Origin: Marinomonas primoryensis
Lineage (GTDB): Bacteria; Pseudomonadota; Gammaproteobacteria; Pseudomonadales; Marinomonadaceae
DNA: 64,000 nucleotides
NCBI RefSeq assembly: GCF_013372285.1
Contig: NZ_CP054301.1
Location: 854,001 to 918,000, forward strand
Direction: 5' to 3'
Below the pieces are notes generated by a model. That model had not been told where the DNA came from, searched no databases, and saw only the letters and a program-made list of their open reading frames with translations. The stretch's first letter is position 1, and the number at the start of each line of letters is the position of its first letter. The position numbers were made by a program, and so were the translations under genes. Positions 42,482-64,000 of this stretch are shown piece by piece.

Positions 42482-44044
42482 ATGCGCAAAATGCCAGTAA
42501 CAAATAAAGAGATTGATTTCCCAGAAAGTTCTTCTTTGGTGTCCAGTACGGATGTGAAAGGACGCATTACATTTGTTAATGATGCTTTTTGTGATGTAGC
42601 GGGTTACGAGCGTGAGGCGTTAATCGGTGCGCCACATAACATTATTCGTCACCCTGATGTGCCTTCTGCTGTTTTTGCTAACATGTGGGCTGATCTCAAA
42701 CAGGGTAAGAGTTGGATGGGGTTAGTGAAGAACCGTTGTGGAAATGGTGATCATTATTGGGTAAGTGCCCATGTCAGCCCGTTATTAGATGGTCGTAAGG
42801 TAATTGGTTATGAGTCTGTTCGTCGTAAAGCGACTCGAGATGAAATTTTGCATGCTCAGTCTGTCTATGATCGGATTAACGCGGGTAAGAATTTGGTACC
42901 GTCGTTCACAAAAGTGGCAGCCCATTTAGATAATGCTTCTTGGCCTTTGATGTCTTGTTTTATTTTATTGGCCTTGATTGGGTTATTGTCTAGCTCGGTG
43001 GCGTTACAGGTGGCTGGGCCTATTCTTGCGCTGTTGGGGATTTGTTTAGCGTATCAGCAGAGTAAGTCATTGAATGCGGTTGTATTTGGCTTGTCACCTG
43101 AAGCGCACAATCCAATAGGGCAGTATTTGTACTGTAAAACCGTCGGTACTAAGGCTGCAATTAAATTTGCGAAGATTCATCAAGAAGCCGCAGGCAACAC
43201 GTTTCGCTATCGTTTAAAAGAAGGTGCGCAACAGCTTCAGCACAGAGCGTCCGAAGCGAAAGCGAGTGTGTCGACGAATCTTGCTAACTTTAATAAACAG
43301 CGTAATACGTTTCAGGAAGTGGTAGCTGCCAGCTCTCAACTGCTTTCTAGTGTCACTCTGGTGGCGGAGAATGTTCATGTAGCCGTTGAAGCGACGGAGT
43401 CTGTAGGTGTGGTTTCTCGAGAGAGTCGTTTATTAGCTCAGCAAACTGGCGAAACGATGCGTCAGGTTTATCAAGATATTTCCGATGCGAAAAAGGTAGT
43501 AGCCATACTGGCAGAGCGCAGTGATAGCATCAACGAAGTGGTTAATTCCATTAGTGGTATTGCAGAGCAGACAAACTTGCTTGCTTTAAATGCGGCTATT
43601 GAGTCTGCCCGCGCTGGTGAAGCTGGACGAGGTTTTGCGGTGGTCGCTGATGAAGTTCGAGCGCTGGCAATCCGGACACAAAATGCAACGCAAAGTATTC
43701 ATAGCATGACGGAAGAGTTAAAGAAAAATACGGCAGATGTGACGAATACTATCGATAAAGGTACGGCGGTTGCGCAAGAAGGTGTGGATAGCGTTAATAA
43801 AGTAGCTCAAAAAATGGGTGATATTGAGACCGCTATTAAACAAATTGTCGAAATGACCGCTCAAATTAATGTCTCTTCAGAAGAGCAGGCCAGCGTAGCC
43901 CGTGATCTTAATGAAAAAATGCGAGAAGTAGATGCTCTTAGTATCAATAGTATAGAGCGCGCAGAAAATATTGTGATAAATATCAGTCATATTGAAGAAG
44001 AGGCCTACGAGCAAGGCAATCTTGCTGAACGTATGAAGCAGTAG
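42482..44044 (+). CDS. Aer-like PAS-domain methyl-accepting chemotaxis protein
   Basis: The start is ATG 42482 ([15 protein letters not shown]), giving 520 residues. A PAS domain (about 20-120: [37 protein letters not shown]) is followed by a hydrophobic anchor (about 150-190) and a cytoplasmic signalling domain whose hairpin tip is [23 protein letters not shown]. The layout and opening motif match Aer, the FAD-PAS energy/redox-taxis receptor that signals to CheA/CheW. There is no C-terminal CheR-tether pentapeptide. It is monocistronic, with a strong terminator downstream. Confidence 0.92.
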
Positions 44045-59237: not shown

Positions 59238-59672
59238 ATGAAAAAGTCACGACGAATGCAGATATTAGTCGATCTTGCTAAAGGTAAAGAAGACTCGGCT
59301 GCTCAGCAACTGGCTCGTGATAAAGCCAAAGTGCAACACGACCTGCAAAAATTGAGTGAATTGCGAGAGTACGCTGGGCAGTATGAATCAGAACGTAATC
59401 TTCTCGGTTTGAGTGCTTATCTGACAACGAATTATCAGCACTTTGTTGATCGAGTTCGCCAGGCGATTGTTCAGCAAGAATCCGCTGTTGGGCGATCTGA
59501 ACAGCAAGCAGATATGAGTATGCGTCGCTGGTTGCAAGCTAGGTCGAAAACCAAAAGTATGGATTGGTTGAAAGAGAAAAATCACAAAGCAGAGTTGGTT
59601 GTTGAGGAAAAGCAAGAGCAACGTCAAAGTGATGAATTTGCGATGCGTCGTTTTTTAGACAATATGCGATAG
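59238..59672 (+). CDS. fliJ: Flagellar export chaperone FliJ
   Basis: This 144-residue protein is nearly all helical and highly charged, with long coiled-coil segments (about 10-60 and 75-140), as in FliJ. Residues such as RRMQILVDLAKGKEDSAAQQLARD and the C-terminal EEKQEQRQSDEFAMRRF fit the family. FliJ acts as a stalk in the FliI ring and shuttles export chaperones. The call rests on length, coiled coil and position after fliI, because this family is weakly conserved. Confidence 0.9.
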   Translation: MKKSRRMQILVDLAKGKEDSAAQQLARDKAKVQHDLQKLSELREYAGQYESERNLLGLSAYLTTNYQHFVDRVRQAIVQQESAVGRSEQQADMSMRRWLQARSKTKSMDWLKEKNHKAELVVEEKQEQRQSDEFAMRRFLDNMR

Positions 59673-59722: not shown

Positions 59723-61609
59723 ATGGTGCGACTGGATAATGGACTGACCGATTTATCTTTGTCTGTTTCTCAGGTAGAAATAGCACTGCGTGATTATGCT
59801 TATTCCCCTCAGTTTGGTTTAGAAAAACTTCGTCTCGCTCTGCTTTCCATGCCAAAAAACACGGATTTAAATACCTCTAATAACGCTTATCATGATAGGT
59901 TTTCTTCTTTTCTTGATGCTGTTGATGGGCTTTTGGCATCAGGCTCTCCTTATTCGGAGTACTATCATACCGCGTTTTTTTCTGCGGCAGACGCGCTTTT
60001 TCAGGTTGCGATTGGAAGTCAGTTTGGCTTAGATCGCATGTTACAATTAGATCACCTTTTGTCTCTTGAGCGTTCCTGTTGGGTTGCTATTTTACCCTTG
60101 TCTGATGATAAAACACGCTCGCCAATGTATGTAGATTATGAAGCCCGATTAGTGGAGGTATCTGCCTCGACAGATCCAATTAGCGTAGATGTGTATTTGG
60201 AAGCGCTTTCTTCATCTGGACGTGTGTCGTTTCAACTGGACGCAATAAAGGGGGCTTTTTTAGAGGGGCGCTTTTTGCTTGCTAGTGTGCAGTCTCTTTC
60301 ATGGTTACAAGCTAGATTTCCTTTGCTTCAATGGCAGCAAGCCTTTGGCAATAATGAGGAAGAATCTTTAAAAGAGCTGTGTAAACTAAATTTTCTACCT
60401 CTCTTTCAAAACGTGTCTTTAAAAAGAGATTATCGCTATCGTCTTTTAGGCTTGTCTGAAGATCGTCTTAAAACACTATTTTATCAAATGTTTGGATCGC
60501 TTTTTCCTTCGGATTTATTCAATGTGGAGCAGCGAGACCGTTTTGTTCCAGCGTCGCAGAATGTCATACCGTTTGAATATGATGCAGGCGTTGCTTATTT
60601 TCCGATACGTCATGGTGGATCGGTTTATGTTGGTAGTGAGTCAATCAAGGGGGATGGTCAAAAACTATCGTATCTGGCGTGTTTAGGGCACGATTTCTTA
60701 TCTTATTTCTTGTATGAAATTGATACCAGTTTTGGGCGGTTTGTTTTTGATGAAGCTGAGTGTCTTGGGGCTTATGTTGTTTCTGAAAAAGACCTATTTG
60801 TTCTTGGTGGGGACCTATGGCTTGGTGTTGAAGGAGCGGTTAAAGCTCAAGTTGTTTTGGATATGCCTTTTTTATCGTCAAACGATACGGCTTACTGCAT
60901 TTTACCCAGATATATTGCGCAAGTGTTGGTGGTCAAACAGGGTGAATTATATTTTGCGGTACCTTATTCCACTCTTGATAAAATAGAAGGTGTTTGTTCC
61001 CGAATGCCAGCGCCCCATTCTTGGGTGAAAAATATTTGGCTTAATCCGCAAAATATACCTTTGTTAGAGCCTTGTCTGGTAAATATAGATGAACCCTCTC
61101 TGGAGTATGGCTGGCCCGAAGAAAATAAACCAACACATCCTTCCAAGAATGGTTATTATTTGGGGAGGGTCTGTGGCAGGATGTTTTGTGTGAAAGCGGA
61201 ATTAGTGTCGGCGCTATTACCTTATCAATCGCCTTTTTCGCTTACTTTTTTTGATGGGGGTGAACGGAATTTGGCGTCATTTATTATTAATGATGGATAT
61301 TGTTTTGATAAGGTTGTTTCCAAAATATTTTTGGATGGGTTGTTGAGTATGTCGCATGAAGTGCCTGGTTTTTCAGTCATTCTTGAATGTCTGGGAGAGT
61401 CAGTTGTACTGCCTTTTACCACTTGCGATTGGCGTACTTCACTACCAAGCGGAGAATACGTTAGGGAGTTTAGTTTACCTCCTAAACTAATAGGGGGTGA
61501 CGATGAAATGAGTCATTACTCTTCTATGCAAGATGACATTATTGTTATTGATAAAAAAAATTATTTATCCTTCGTTGCTGGCGTTTGGCCATCTTCATCA
61601 TTAGCTTGA
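59723..61609 (+). CDS. Large unknown protein with weakly CheW-like C-terminal repeats
   Basis: This 628-residue soluble protein has no signal peptide or membrane segment. Residues 1-115 are mostly helical. From about 395, YIAQVLVVKQGELYFAVPYS resembles the start of CheW folds. A second similar unit from about 476 (GYYLGRVCGRMFCVKAELVS, then NLASFIINDGYCFDKVV) looks like a repeat. No histidine kinase ATP-binding motif or Hpt histidine motif is clear. It has a good TTAGGATG ribosome site and lies 50 bases after fliJ, with the chemoreceptor-like gene following. A scaffold role in a chemosensory-like complex is speculative. The reading frame and base composition match its flagellar neighbours. 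Confidence 0.7.
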   Translation: MVRLDNGLTDLSLSVSQVEIALRDYAYSPQFGLEKLRLALLSMPKNTDLNTSNNAYHDRFSSFLDAVDGLLASGSPYSEYYHTAFFSAADALFQVAIGSQFGLDRMLQLDHLLSLERSCWVAILPLSDDKTRSPMYVDYEARLVEVSASTDPISVDVYLEALSSSGRVSFQLDAIKGAFLEGRFLLASVQSLSWLQARFPLLQWQQAFGNNEEESLKELCKLNFLPLFQNVSLKRDYRYRLLGLSEDRLKTLFYQMFGSLFPSDLFNVEQRDRFVPASQNVIPFEYDAGVAYFPIRHGGSVYVGSESIKGDGQKLSYLACLGHDFLSYFLYEIDTSFGRFVFDEAECLGAYVVSEKDLFVLGGDLWLGVEGAVKAQVVLDMPFLSSNDTAYCILPRYIAQVLVVKQGELYFAVPYSTLDKIEGVCSRMPAPHSWVKNIWLNPQNIPLLEPCLVNIDEPSLEYGWPEENKPTHPSKNGYYLGRVCGRMFCVKAELVSALLPYQSPFSLTFFDGGERNLASFIINDGYCFDKVVSKIFLDGLLSMSHEVPGFSVILECLGESVVLPFTTCDWRTSLPSGEYVREFSLPPKLIGGDDEMSHYSSMQDDIIVIDKKNYLSFVAGVWPSSSLA

Positions 61610-61624
61610 AAGTGATTATTGACT

Positions 61625-63517
61625 ATGAATACACAGCATTCACCTTTTGGTGCTCCAAGAAAAGAGCTGATTAATAGTCTGCAAAAAGGCGTTTTCGCCT
61701 TGTTGTTTATACTGTTATTGGCCTTTTCAGGCATGTACATGTTGATGACTATTAACTTGGAGCGGCAACATGCGCAGCAAGAAAAGCTAAGCGGGCTTTT
61801 GGAGTTGGTTCATAGTGCTGAAAAGCATTGGTTGGAATGGTTGTTGGTTGGTGATAAACAAATTTATAGCCAAAATAGTGTATTAGCTTCTTCCCCAAGT
61901 TATCTGCATCAGATGCTAGTGGGCGAATATCGCTTGATAAAAAATCATCTTGATGGTTTTGGGTTGATGTCTGATGTGGATGTGTCGGACTCGCTTATTT
62001 TGTTAAGTGGTCTTTCTCAAAAAGAGCTAGATTCTGTGCCTTTGACGGAAATAGAACGAGGCGCAGTGTATTCATCTTTTGAGTTTCTAGAAACGCTTGA
62101 TGATGCGCTTTTGCAAATTAGCGTTGATTTGGATTATGAGCGTCAGTTTTTTGTTGAAAGGTTGATTTGGGTTCCTGTGGTCATTTTTTTACTGATTGCT
62201 GTTATCGTCATGATGCTGACGGTTCGTTTTGGACGCCAATTACGGTCTGGGTTTTCTAGTCTTCATTATATTTTAGATCGCCATAAGCATGGTCATGTCT
62301 CGATACTCGCACCACGAAATGTGGTGGATGAATTTACTGATCTGAGTCATTTGGTCGATAGTGAATTGGCCTCAAGGAATTTCGATCTTGATCAACAGGG
62401 CGAGAACCTTAGCTTGATTGAGAAGGCCTTGTCTAAAGTGAATGATCCTTTTTTTGTAACGAATCATGAAGGGGATATTGTATGGTTGAGTGCAGGTGCT
62501 GAAAGGCTTTGGTTTAGAAATACATCTGTATTTGAGTCTCTGTTTGGTATCGATTCTGGTTTAGATGATCCAATTGGCGAGCGCGTTGCTGATTCTATTT
62601 TATTGTTAGATCAGGACTTGAAGTTGGATTTATCTGATGGCATTTTCTGGCTGAGTGTTGATCGTTTTATTTCTGGCTCGGACGTGGAGTCTGATAGTTT
62701 CCAGAGTATTATTTACATTCAATCAAAATCTGAAATGGCAGAGTTTGATGTTTTACATCACAGCCTGAAGTTGATGGAAAAAGATGTTTGGAATTCATCG
62801 ATTAGAATATTAAGGCAAGACTCTCCATATATAGGTTTTGCTAAATCATTAGAAATGGTGCGTCGAAAAGTAGTGATGCTCTTCGACTCTCTGAACCTTG
62901 TCTCTGAACGAACAAATAGCGTTGAAAAAATTACTAAACTACAACAAATAGCATCCCTAATTGACGAAAAAACAGACCACAATGAGCAATCAGAAAAAAA
63001 TATCGTTGTTAGTGAAGTGCCATTTGAAGGGTTTCAGGTTGAGCTAAATGATGTGGCTTGGCTGTCTGAACAAGTCCGAGATTCATTAATATTAGGGTAT
63101 GAACTTGTTTTACAGCGTTTAGCGTTGGTTGAGAAAGACTTATCCTCTAATGTATTTTTGTTGAGTGACGTCGATCGTTGCCTTAACGAGGTTAGGGCTG
63201 GAGTGTTGTCTAGTCTTGCCGCGACAGAGGGTGAAAGTGAAAAAGTCCGTCACCGTTTCGCTATCGATGTAGAGCATGATATTAGTAAGGTCCAAGATCA
63301 AATAGAAGGCATGAAGTCTATGGCGGCTTCAACCCTGTCACTGCTTGAGTCGGATCGTAGTGTTGGTGTGGCTCGTTTGAATAGAGCAAGAGAGTCTATC
63401 AATGAGATGATTGAGCAAATTCATGGGTTGATGACGAAAACGGCATCAAGTATTTCGGAAGATACGATTTATGACGTATCTATAGAAGAATCTAATGATG
63501 AGTGGGATGAGTTTTAA
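61625..63517 (+). CDS. Membrane PAS protein built like a chemoreceptor but without the signalling hairpin
   Basis: From ATG 61625 the protein has 630 residues. TM1 (about 22-43), a roughly 135-residue periplasmic helical domain, TM2 (about 181-201), a HAMP-like linker and a PAS domain (about 262-370: NDPFFVTNHEGDIVWLSAGAE) follow in order. The C-terminal half is helical and coiled-coil, but the MCP hairpin with its [18 protein letters not shown] motif is absent. The last five residues are EWDEF, which fits the xWxxF CheR/CheB tether of some receptors. The gene starts 15 bases after the previous one. Function unknown; the family is not recognised. Confidence 0.72.
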   Translation: MNTQHSPFGAPRKELINSLQKGVFALLFILLLAFSGMYMLMTINLERQHAQQEKLSGLLELVHSAEKHWLEWLLVGDKQIYSQNSVLASSPSYLHQMLVGEYRLIKNHLDGFGLMSDVDVSDSLILLSGLSQKELDSVPLTEIERGAVYSSFEFLETLDDALLQISVDLDYERQFFVERLIWVPVVIFLLIAVIVMMLTVRFGRQLRSGFSSLHYILDRHKHGHVSILAPRNVVDEFTDLSHLVDSELASRNFDLDQQGENLSLIEKALSKVNDPFFVTNHEGDIVWLSAGAERLWFRNTSVFESLFGIDSGLDDPIGERVADSILLLDQDLKLDLSDGIFWLSVDRFISGSDVESDSFQSIIYIQSKSEMAEFDVLHHSLKLMEKDVWNSSIRILRQDSPYIGFAKSLEMVRRKVVMLFDSLNLVSERTNSVEKITKLQQIASLIDEKTDHNEQSEKNIVVSEVPFEGFQVELNDVAWLSEQVRDSLILGYELVLQRLALVEKDLSSNVFLLSDVDRCLNEVRAGVLSSLAATEGESEKVRHRFAIDVEHDISKVQDQIEGMKSMAASTLSLLESDRSVGVARLNRARESINEMIEQIHGLMTKTASSISEDTIYDVSIEESNDEWDEF

Positions 63518-63547
63518 GGCTTGCCATTAAGATTCGAGGAGCAAGCT

Positions 63548-63850
63548 GTGGTTGAAAGTTTTTTTGATAAAAAAACAGAGTGCCTGACAATCAAAGTAAA
63601 AGGTCGTTTTGATTACAGCTGTCACAAAATGTTTAAAGAGGCTTTTACAGCGTCTAATGCGGTAAAATCTTATGAAGTTAACTTGGCTGAAGTGACATAC
63701 TTAGATAGTTCAGCTCTTGGCATGCTGCTGTTACTGAGAGATTATGCTGGTGGAGAGAAGGCTATGATTCGTTTGGTTCATGTGAAAGGTGTGGTTATTG
63801 ATACCCTTAAAATTGCGAATTTCCATCGGCTTTTTGACATCACTGAGTAG
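63548..63850 (+). CDS. STAS-domain protein (anti-sigma factor antagonist type)
   Basis: The start is set at GTG 63548, 7 bases after a GAGGAG ribosome site, giving 100 residues. The longer frame from TTG 63521 runs through that ribosome site. The STAS fold is clear: CLTIKVKGRFDYSCHKMFKEAF, then YEVNLAEVTYLDSSALGMLLLL, where DSSALG carries the serine that is phosphorylated in SpoIIAA-like proteins. In Pseudomonas a STAS protein and a response regulator with a PP2C phosphatase (HsbA/HsbR-like) control flagellar and biofilm output. A response-regulator gene follows 6 bases on. Confidence 0.9.
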   Translation: MVESFFDKKTECLTIKVKGRFDYSCHKMFKEAFTASNAVKSYEVNLAEVTYLDSSALGMLLLLRDYAGGEKAMIRLVHVKGVVIDTLKIANFHRLFDITE

Positions 63851-63856
63851 TCGATA

Positions 63857-64000
63857 ATGGAACGAGTTTTAACCATATTAATTGCAGATGATAACCCTTC
63901 TGACCGTATTTTACTTAAAACGATTTTGAGTCAATTTGGACATAAAGTTATATCGGCTGTTGATGGGCAAGATGCCATTGATAAATTCGATCCTCAACTT
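63857..64000 (+). CDS. Response regulator receiver domain, cut by the window end
   Basis: The first 48 codons are in the window: MERVLTILIADDNPSDRILL and onward to DGQDAIDKFDPQL. They show the receiver-domain acidic pair (ADDN) and the loop after strand 2. The phospho-Asp lies just beyond the window. The gene begins 6 bases after the STAS gene, so the two form one unit. Next to a STAS gene, the likely full architecture is receiver plus PP2C-type phosphatase, as in HsbR, but this is inferred and cannot be seen. Confidence 0.85.
   Translation, partial: MERVLTILIADDNPSDRILLKTILSQFGHKVISAVDGQDAIDKFDPQL

Follow-up and report, generated by a model that had tools for sequence, protein, structure and literature searches.

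Layout of the locus

The four genes considered here are located in the flagellar region of Marinomonas primoryensis, between fliJ and fliK, and encode a CheA-like protein (P628), a receptor-like membrane protein (P632), a STAS protein and a regulator of the HsbR/CrsR type. The window, that is, the whole stretch of 64,000 nucleotides that was analysed (G000:C1:854001-918000), is part of a single 4.07-Mb contig and ends inside the HsbR gene. The original prediction, made from the letters of the window, had placed four genes after fliJ on the forward strand with gaps of 50, 15, 30 and 6 bases. All four are present (Table 1), and the gaps are exact when the inner starts of P632 (ATG) and of the STAS gene (GTG) are used; the GTG start is preferred for the latter because many relatives have versions of 100 amino acids. 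Downstream of the HsbR gene, beyond the window end, fliK, fliL, fliM and further flagellar genes follow, and P628, P632, STAS and HsbR are the only genes between fliJ and fliK. Since the order fliJ-P628-P632-STAS-HsbR-fliK is repeated across the genus, it is not a product of chance.

Table 1. Genes of the fliJ-fliK slot and its upstream boundary
Feature	Position in the window	Strand	Remarks
fliJ	59238..59672	+	Pfam FliJ 5e-23; upstream boundary of the slot
P628	59723..61609	+	628 aa; putative CheA-derived scaffold; no P4 kinase domain found
P632	61625..63517 (ATG) or from TTG 61619	+	630/632 aa; receptor-like membrane protein
STAS gene	63548..63850 (GTG) or from TTG 63521	+	HsbA/CrsA-like anti-sigma antagonist; STAS_2 1.4e-8
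HsbR/CrsR-like regulator	63857..64000 in the window; end at G000:C1:919566	+	receiver-PP2C-ATPase, 569 aa

For comparison, HsbR was searched in 94 relatives and 60 neighbourhoods were read, 44 within the genus and 16 of 46 outside it. The 16 outgroup neighbourhoods were picked by HsbR score, that of G016 through its second-best place, the best being at a contig end. Counts for the genus refer to 48 genomes, namely the 44 loci L068-L111 together with G000, G150, G292 and G308, and the residue columns of HsbR refer to the 44 genus loci plus the window, 45 in all.

P628, a probable CheA-derived protein

P628 had been described as carrying weakly CheW-like repeats. By sequence, the match to CheW is weak; no significant match was found in Pfam, NCBIfam or the PDB sequences, and the PHROGs search gave nothing usable. 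In the structure model, the best match is the CheA P1 domain, followed by the CheA P5/CheW folds. The predicted domains are a P1-like helical domain at about residues 4-131, by which the P1 (Hpt) fold is present at the N-terminus, a ferredoxin-like (P2-like) domain at about 132-212, and CheW/P5-like barrels at about 290-570. CheW-like folds are suggested by the model, and the predicted architecture is better read as that of a CheA-derived protein, with a P1-like and P2-like N-terminus and a CheW-like C-terminus, than as CheW repeats. A fusion of a CheA lacking P4 with CheW, suggested by the lengths, was also considered.

No kinase domain could be recognised. Pfam searches with 28 members of the P628 family gave no significant match and no HATPase_c, and the P628 profile gave no significant match to CheA P4. 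In the P1-like domain, no family-wide histidine was found in an alignment of 37 rows (A3), where the best columns have 15/37 and 14/37 and the exact column of the CheA histidine is not fixable; His82 is kept in 27 of 28 close relatives.

P632, a receptor-like protein

P632 had been predicted to be a two-transmembrane (two-TM) PAS protein laid out like a chemoreceptor, and it does look receptor-derived, the labels "PAS" and "two-TM" coming from the AlphaFold model and a profile match rather than from Pfam. The model (predicted local distance difference test score of 72.1) shows a helical sensor enclosed by two long helices, which are taken as the TM segments, followed by PAS and by an extended helical hairpin. 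Aligned by hhalign with the F7 Aer2-like receptors, P632 matches with P=3e-5 over 175 columns covering TM-HAMP-PAS, so that a HAMP-like and a PAS part stand ahead of the hairpin, as in those receptors. In the Foldseek search with the PAS domain, the top chains are two sensor histidine kinases, and the PAS of Aer2 holds ranks 3 and 4. P632 had no significant match in Pfam, NCBIfam or the PDB sequences and nothing usable in PHROGs; across 51 members, the signalling domain of methyl-accepting chemotaxis proteins (MCP; PF00015) was not recognised, and no Pfam family was found at E 0.004 or better. The search for CheW, CheA and MCP folds proposed earlier thus returned CheA P1 and P5/CheW folds for P628 and the TM-HAMP-PAS part of Aer2 for P632, but the hairpin is not specifically MCP-like: in the whole-protein structural search it matches both Tsr and iSH2 coiled coils.

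The C-terminus of P632, DEWDEF, is the same six residues as that of the Aer2 of G006. The pentapeptide x-[HFYW]-x2-[HFYW], in the form given in PMC7184735, is found at the C-terminus in 12/14 Aer2, 0/11 McpA, 13/71 P632 and 6/67 P628 rows, those of P628 by chance; the stricter form W-x-[DE]-[FYW] is found in 12 Aer2, 12 P632, and no McpA or P628 rows. Near-misses such as NDEWDEL and NDELDEF are frequent among the P632 rows, as if a CheR tether were decaying at a locus that has no cheR. It is likely that P632 derives from an F7 Aer2-like receptor. An McpA-like receptor, suggested by the position before STAS, is less favoured, the hhalign comparison with McpA being not significant and the pentapeptide being absent from the McpA rows.

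The STAS protein, HsbR and other signalling genes

The STAS protein is confirmed by Pfam, and TIGR00377 matches it at 7.5e-12, under the cut-off of that family. Its DSSALG region is intact, and we take the serine of this motif to be the phospho-site. The receiver protein, read past the window end, is composed of Response_reg (1.3e-18), SpoIIE/PP2C (1.3e-29) and an ATPase part matching HATPase_c_2 at 2.7e-5 (24.6 bits, below the cut-off of 27.4). The expected catalytic residues are present, the receiver is intact, and the gene adjoins the STAS gene.

RpoS and FlgM are encoded in the genome. Its single CheA is encoded at G000:C1:933 kb, still within the flagellar region and 15-20 kb downstream; judged by its place beside fliA, it is presumably of the F6 type, the neighbouring genes being named from their sequence. 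HptB is not found beside HsbR at any of the 45 Marinomonas loci, as against 14 of the 16 outgroup loci. Ten histidine phosphotransfer (Hpt) matches occur in the genome, two of them on small open reading frames (ORFs). An HptB orthologue elsewhere in the genome was sought, and the best profile scores fell on an ORF of hybrid-kinase size and the two small ORFs, which were not accepted as orthologues.

F7 clusters and remnants in the slot of relatives

The original prediction saw the two large genes as an addition in front of a STAS/regulator pair of the Pseudomonas type. The slot of relatives points instead to a likely reduced chemosensory cluster, since some of them hold a full F7 cluster there. 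F7 genes stand ahead of STAS-HsbR in five of the 16 outgroup loci (L112, L116, L118, L120 and L122). The full slot, with fliJ directly upstream and fliK downstream, is seen in L116, in L112 (with L191) and in L122 (with L192); L118 has a fliJ-like ORF some 4 kb upstream, and the L120 locus is truncated by its contig. Elsewhere in the order, some families have the cluster in the form STAS-CheY-CheA-CheW-Aer2-CheR-CheD-CheB-STAS-HsbR-HptB. In L116, Pfam identifies STAS, CheY, CheA (with Hpt, dimer, HATPase and CheW domains), CheW, a PAS-PAS-HAMP-MCP receptor, CheR, CheD, CheB, STAS, HsbR and an Hpt protein. The slot of L122 has an McpA-like gene and no Aer2 gene. Receptors at the McpA position are degenerate elsewhere too: the protein of L118 (L118:7719-8903) has no Pfam match, and that of L122 has PF00015.

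Two loci are reduced differently, one keeping CheY, CheD and a 308-aa protein without Pfam match (L117:6913-9451) and the other a lone CheR (L123:8263-9476) before STAS-HsbR-HptB. Nothing recognisable lies between fliJ and STAS in L114, L115, L119 and L125, and in L113, L121, L124, L126 and L127 the locus is cut short or has no flagellar genes nearby.

Retention and loss across Marinomonas

Among the protein-database matches listed, there are at least 27 relatives of P628 and at least 53 of P632. The named ones are few and mostly from Marinomonas; two P628 relatives come from metagenome-assembled genomes called Gammaproteobacteria and Oceanospirillaceae, and all 24 named contigs encoding P632 are from Marinomonas. 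Of 293 genomes of the order, the P628 profile matched 9, which all belong to the same genus as the window. Four of the 13 listed genus members were missed; of these, G193 and G213 carry a divergent P628 found with an iterated profile, and G253 and G292 have no room for the gene.

Over the 48 genus genomes, P632 is kept in 47, the HsbR ATPase in 46, P628 in 43 and STAS in 39; the count for P628 includes L096 (E=5.9e-5 only), L089 (cut by the contig) and L075 (two frames). None of the genes is present in G308, which is filed in the genus; it shows no P632 match and no clear flagellar HsbR, and has two matches to the CheA dimerisation domain 29 kb apart. The four genes co-occur insofar as their order recurs across the genus, but STAS is not a constant partner, and it is the ATPase part of HsbR that persists with P632 (46/47 genomes). 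Likewise, the occurrence of the large genes without the STAS/regulator pair, which the original prediction regarded as breaking the module, is found in part: both are kept without an intact STAS in five genomes (L084, L107, L109, L110 and L111), and M. ushuaiensis (G292, L013) has P632 alone.

The dN/dS ratios (non-synonymous to synonymous substitution rates) were obtained from three comparisons, of which one is close to saturation (dS > 1.2); they are 0.31, 0.29 and 0.15 for P628 and 0.12, 0.11 and 0.10 for P632. Because these are well below 1, both proteins look constrained.

Within HsbR, three ATPase residues are intact in 45/45 loci, and the ATPase is never lost where HsbR remains, while the phosphate pocket of the receiver, PP2C and STAS have been lost repeatedly. 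The acceptor Asp is absent in L088, L092, L101, L106, L107 and L110, the acidic pair and Lys in L109 and L111, and the whole receiver in L108. In these nine of 45 loci, which correspond to about five events on the FliI tree, P632 is retained in all and P628 in eight. In a comparison set of 27 rows, made up of the window, outgroup loci with HptB, full F7 clusters and others, the acceptor Asp is kept in 25, the exceptions being L127 and L146. The PP2C core is absent from HsbR in L107-L111, all five of which are without STAS and which fall on three branches of the FliI tree. These short forms have 219-345 aa with an intact ATPase, and may be stand-alone anti-sigma proteins. STAS is also missing or, judging from a remnant, broken in L087 and L084, both with a full HsbR.

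Comparison with known systems

The stage 1 F7 system (PMC7184735; Ortega et al. 2020) is arranged as cheY-cheA-cheW-aer2-cheR-cheD-cheB between two STAS genes, a gene set not found between fliJ and fliK in the genome of the window. Shared features are the place in the flagellar cluster, as read from the F7 clusters of three genomes analysed, the terminal pair of STAS and serine phosphatase, a receptor-like protein with the C-terminal pentapeptide, and a further CheA elsewhere in the genome. In contrast to the stage 1 F7 system, the Marinomonas locus has no CheY, CheW, CheR, CheD, CheB or leading STAS, a protein in which no P4 can be recognised stands in for CheA, and the receptor has no recognisable MCP signalling domain.

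In Shewanella oneidensis, the CrsR-CrsA pair belongs to the F7 (Che1) operon, and an action of Che1 on RpoS has been proposed (PMC9855816). As in Marinomonas, chemosensory genes there share an operon with a STAS protein and a regulator carrying an anti-sigma domain, but Che1 keeps CheA1, Y1, W1, R1, D1, B1 and two receptors (PMC9855816). For Pseudomonas aeruginosa, PMC6482189 states that the kinase/anti-sigma domain of HsbR phosphorylates HsbA, that HsbR controls RpoS, and that unphosphorylated HsbA binds FlgM. The phosphatase and kinase/anti-sigma domains of HsbR, the STAS partner and the FlgM and RpoS genes are shared with Marinomonas, whereas the Marinomonas locus lacks HptB and has two extra conserved genes. 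P628 shares with CheA the predicted order of P1-like, P2-like and CheW-like parts; it differs in having no detectable HATPase, which the survey PMC10782961 reports in every CheA homologue, and no family-wide P1 histidine. Of the open-licence papers listed in the literature searches, none has a title or abstract opening on this Marinomonas locus or on a conserved CheA that lacks its kinase.

Interpretation and alternative explanations

With confidence that is about evenly balanced, we favour the reading that the four genes are a reduced remnant of a stage 1 F7 cluster, acting by contact as a kinase-less, chemoreceptor-derived input to a sigma-factor switch. What is observed is the order of the genes, the complete cluster that some relatives have, the persistence of the ATPase, and the fact that neither a P4 domain, nor a P1 histidine kept throughout the family, nor HptB at the locus could be detected. 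The F7 ancestry is probable, being supported by synteny and fold and weakly by the sequence of P628. The contact mechanism is put forward as a hypothesis, in which docking, signal direction and targets are what we infer. P632 would sense through its periplasmic helical domain and the cytoplasmic PAS, and the CheW-like barrels of P628 would read the hairpin of P632. The P1/P2-like part of P628 would dock on the receiver region of HsbR and bias it between the PP2C and the kinase/anti-sigma ATPase states, by contact and not by phosphotransfer. Via STAS, and via the ATPase directly, the level of free sigma factor would be set, that is, of RpoS and, through FlgM, of FliA. Economically read, the F7 input would have been stripped of its kinase and adaptation enzymes, and the receptor and the CheA-derived scaffold would now contact HsbR. 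The earlier suggestion of a sensor feeding a partner switch rather than a CheA cascade finds its counterpart in the position of the pair beside the STAS and PP2C-ATPase genes, where some relatives have a CheA cascade, but the flow of signal itself is a prediction.

Several observations weigh against this reading. In the profile comparison of P628 with F7 CheA, homology of P2 and P5 was not obtained, and no sequence link between P628 and CheA outside P1 is significant. HsbR identity is 39-42% at loci with F7 genes and 40-41% at G034 and G045 without them; since it does not separate the F7-linked loci, descent is argued from the slot and from the proteins that occupy it. The intact receiver of the window HsbR may still be served by an unknown kinase. 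Finally, the fast evolution of P628 and the presence of P632 alone in M. ushuaiensis fit decay as well. According to that account, which is unlikely but carries real weight, P628 and P632 are decaying leftovers without a role in HsbR control, persisting by drift or a minor flagellar role, and HsbR-STAS is driven by a hybrid kinase and a stand-alone Hpt elsewhere, as in Pseudomonas. P628 is mostly 22-56% identical to the window protein where BLAST detects relatives, its maximum dN/dS is similar to that of fliK, and in M. pontica it is in two reading frames; the genomic Hpt matches and the intact receiver agree with such a drive. However, nearly all species retain open reading frames for both genes, with dN/dS well below 1, P632 is kept even where the receiver pocket, STAS or PP2C is lost, and the small Hpt ORFs score 55 and 32 bits with the HptB profile, as against 132-157 for the locus HptB proteins on which that profile was trained.

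It is quite improbable that the module is kinase-driven, with P632 and P628, as a CheW-like adaptor, coupled to the single CheA of the genome, which would phosphorylate the HsbR receiver. The CheW-like folds and the presence of that CheA would suit it, as would the McpA of the Shewanella F7 operon, which works with the F6 CheA3 (PMC9855816); against it stand the nine loci that lost the receiver Asp or pocket with P632 present in all, and the unrecognised MCP signalling domain of P632. The least probable account holds that the slot was refilled after F7 loss, P628 being a new multi-CheW-like protein with convergent likeness to P1, and P632 an unrelated PAS sensor. Helical bundles match each other easily, which, with the missing CheA link outside P1, speaks for it; yet P628, which occupies the position that cheA has in the full cluster, has its P1-, P2- and P5-like parts in the same order as CheA, and P632 carries the F7 receptor pentapeptide.

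Returning to the contact reading, the recurrent loss of the phosphate pocket with P632 retained agrees with contact signalling, without proving it. A further step is offered tentatively, as a possibility well short of an even chance: the system would be free of a phosphorelay, a pseudo-CheA without phospho-His and kinase domain forming a mechanical link from the receptor hairpin to the anti-sigma ATPase, and the losses would have been stepwise, HptB and P4 first, then the phosphate pocket, then PP2C and STAS, with receptor and ATPase kept. CheA is defined by its kinase, and a CheA-like scaffold that occurs throughout a genus with no recognisable kinase domain, yet remains paired with a receptor and a sigma-factor switch, would, if true, mean that chemosensory parts can be rewired to contact signalling. 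The stepwise losses in related species would open this conversion to experiment and tie the flagellar clusters to the poorly known output of F7.

Further chemosensory genes

A canonical MCP signalling domain is encoded at 43436-43939 of the window, in a 523-aa open frame. Some Marinomonas have a second F7 cluster elsewhere in the genome (L138-L146, in G321, G301, G193, G293, G327, G307, G299, G312 and G325), with the stage 2 order McpA-like, STAS, HsbR-like, CheY, CheA, CheW, Aer2, CheR, CheD, CheB. Its HsbR is diverged, with 24-27% identity to the L116 protein; L141 has its CheA reading frame split in two, and L146 has a short HsbR.

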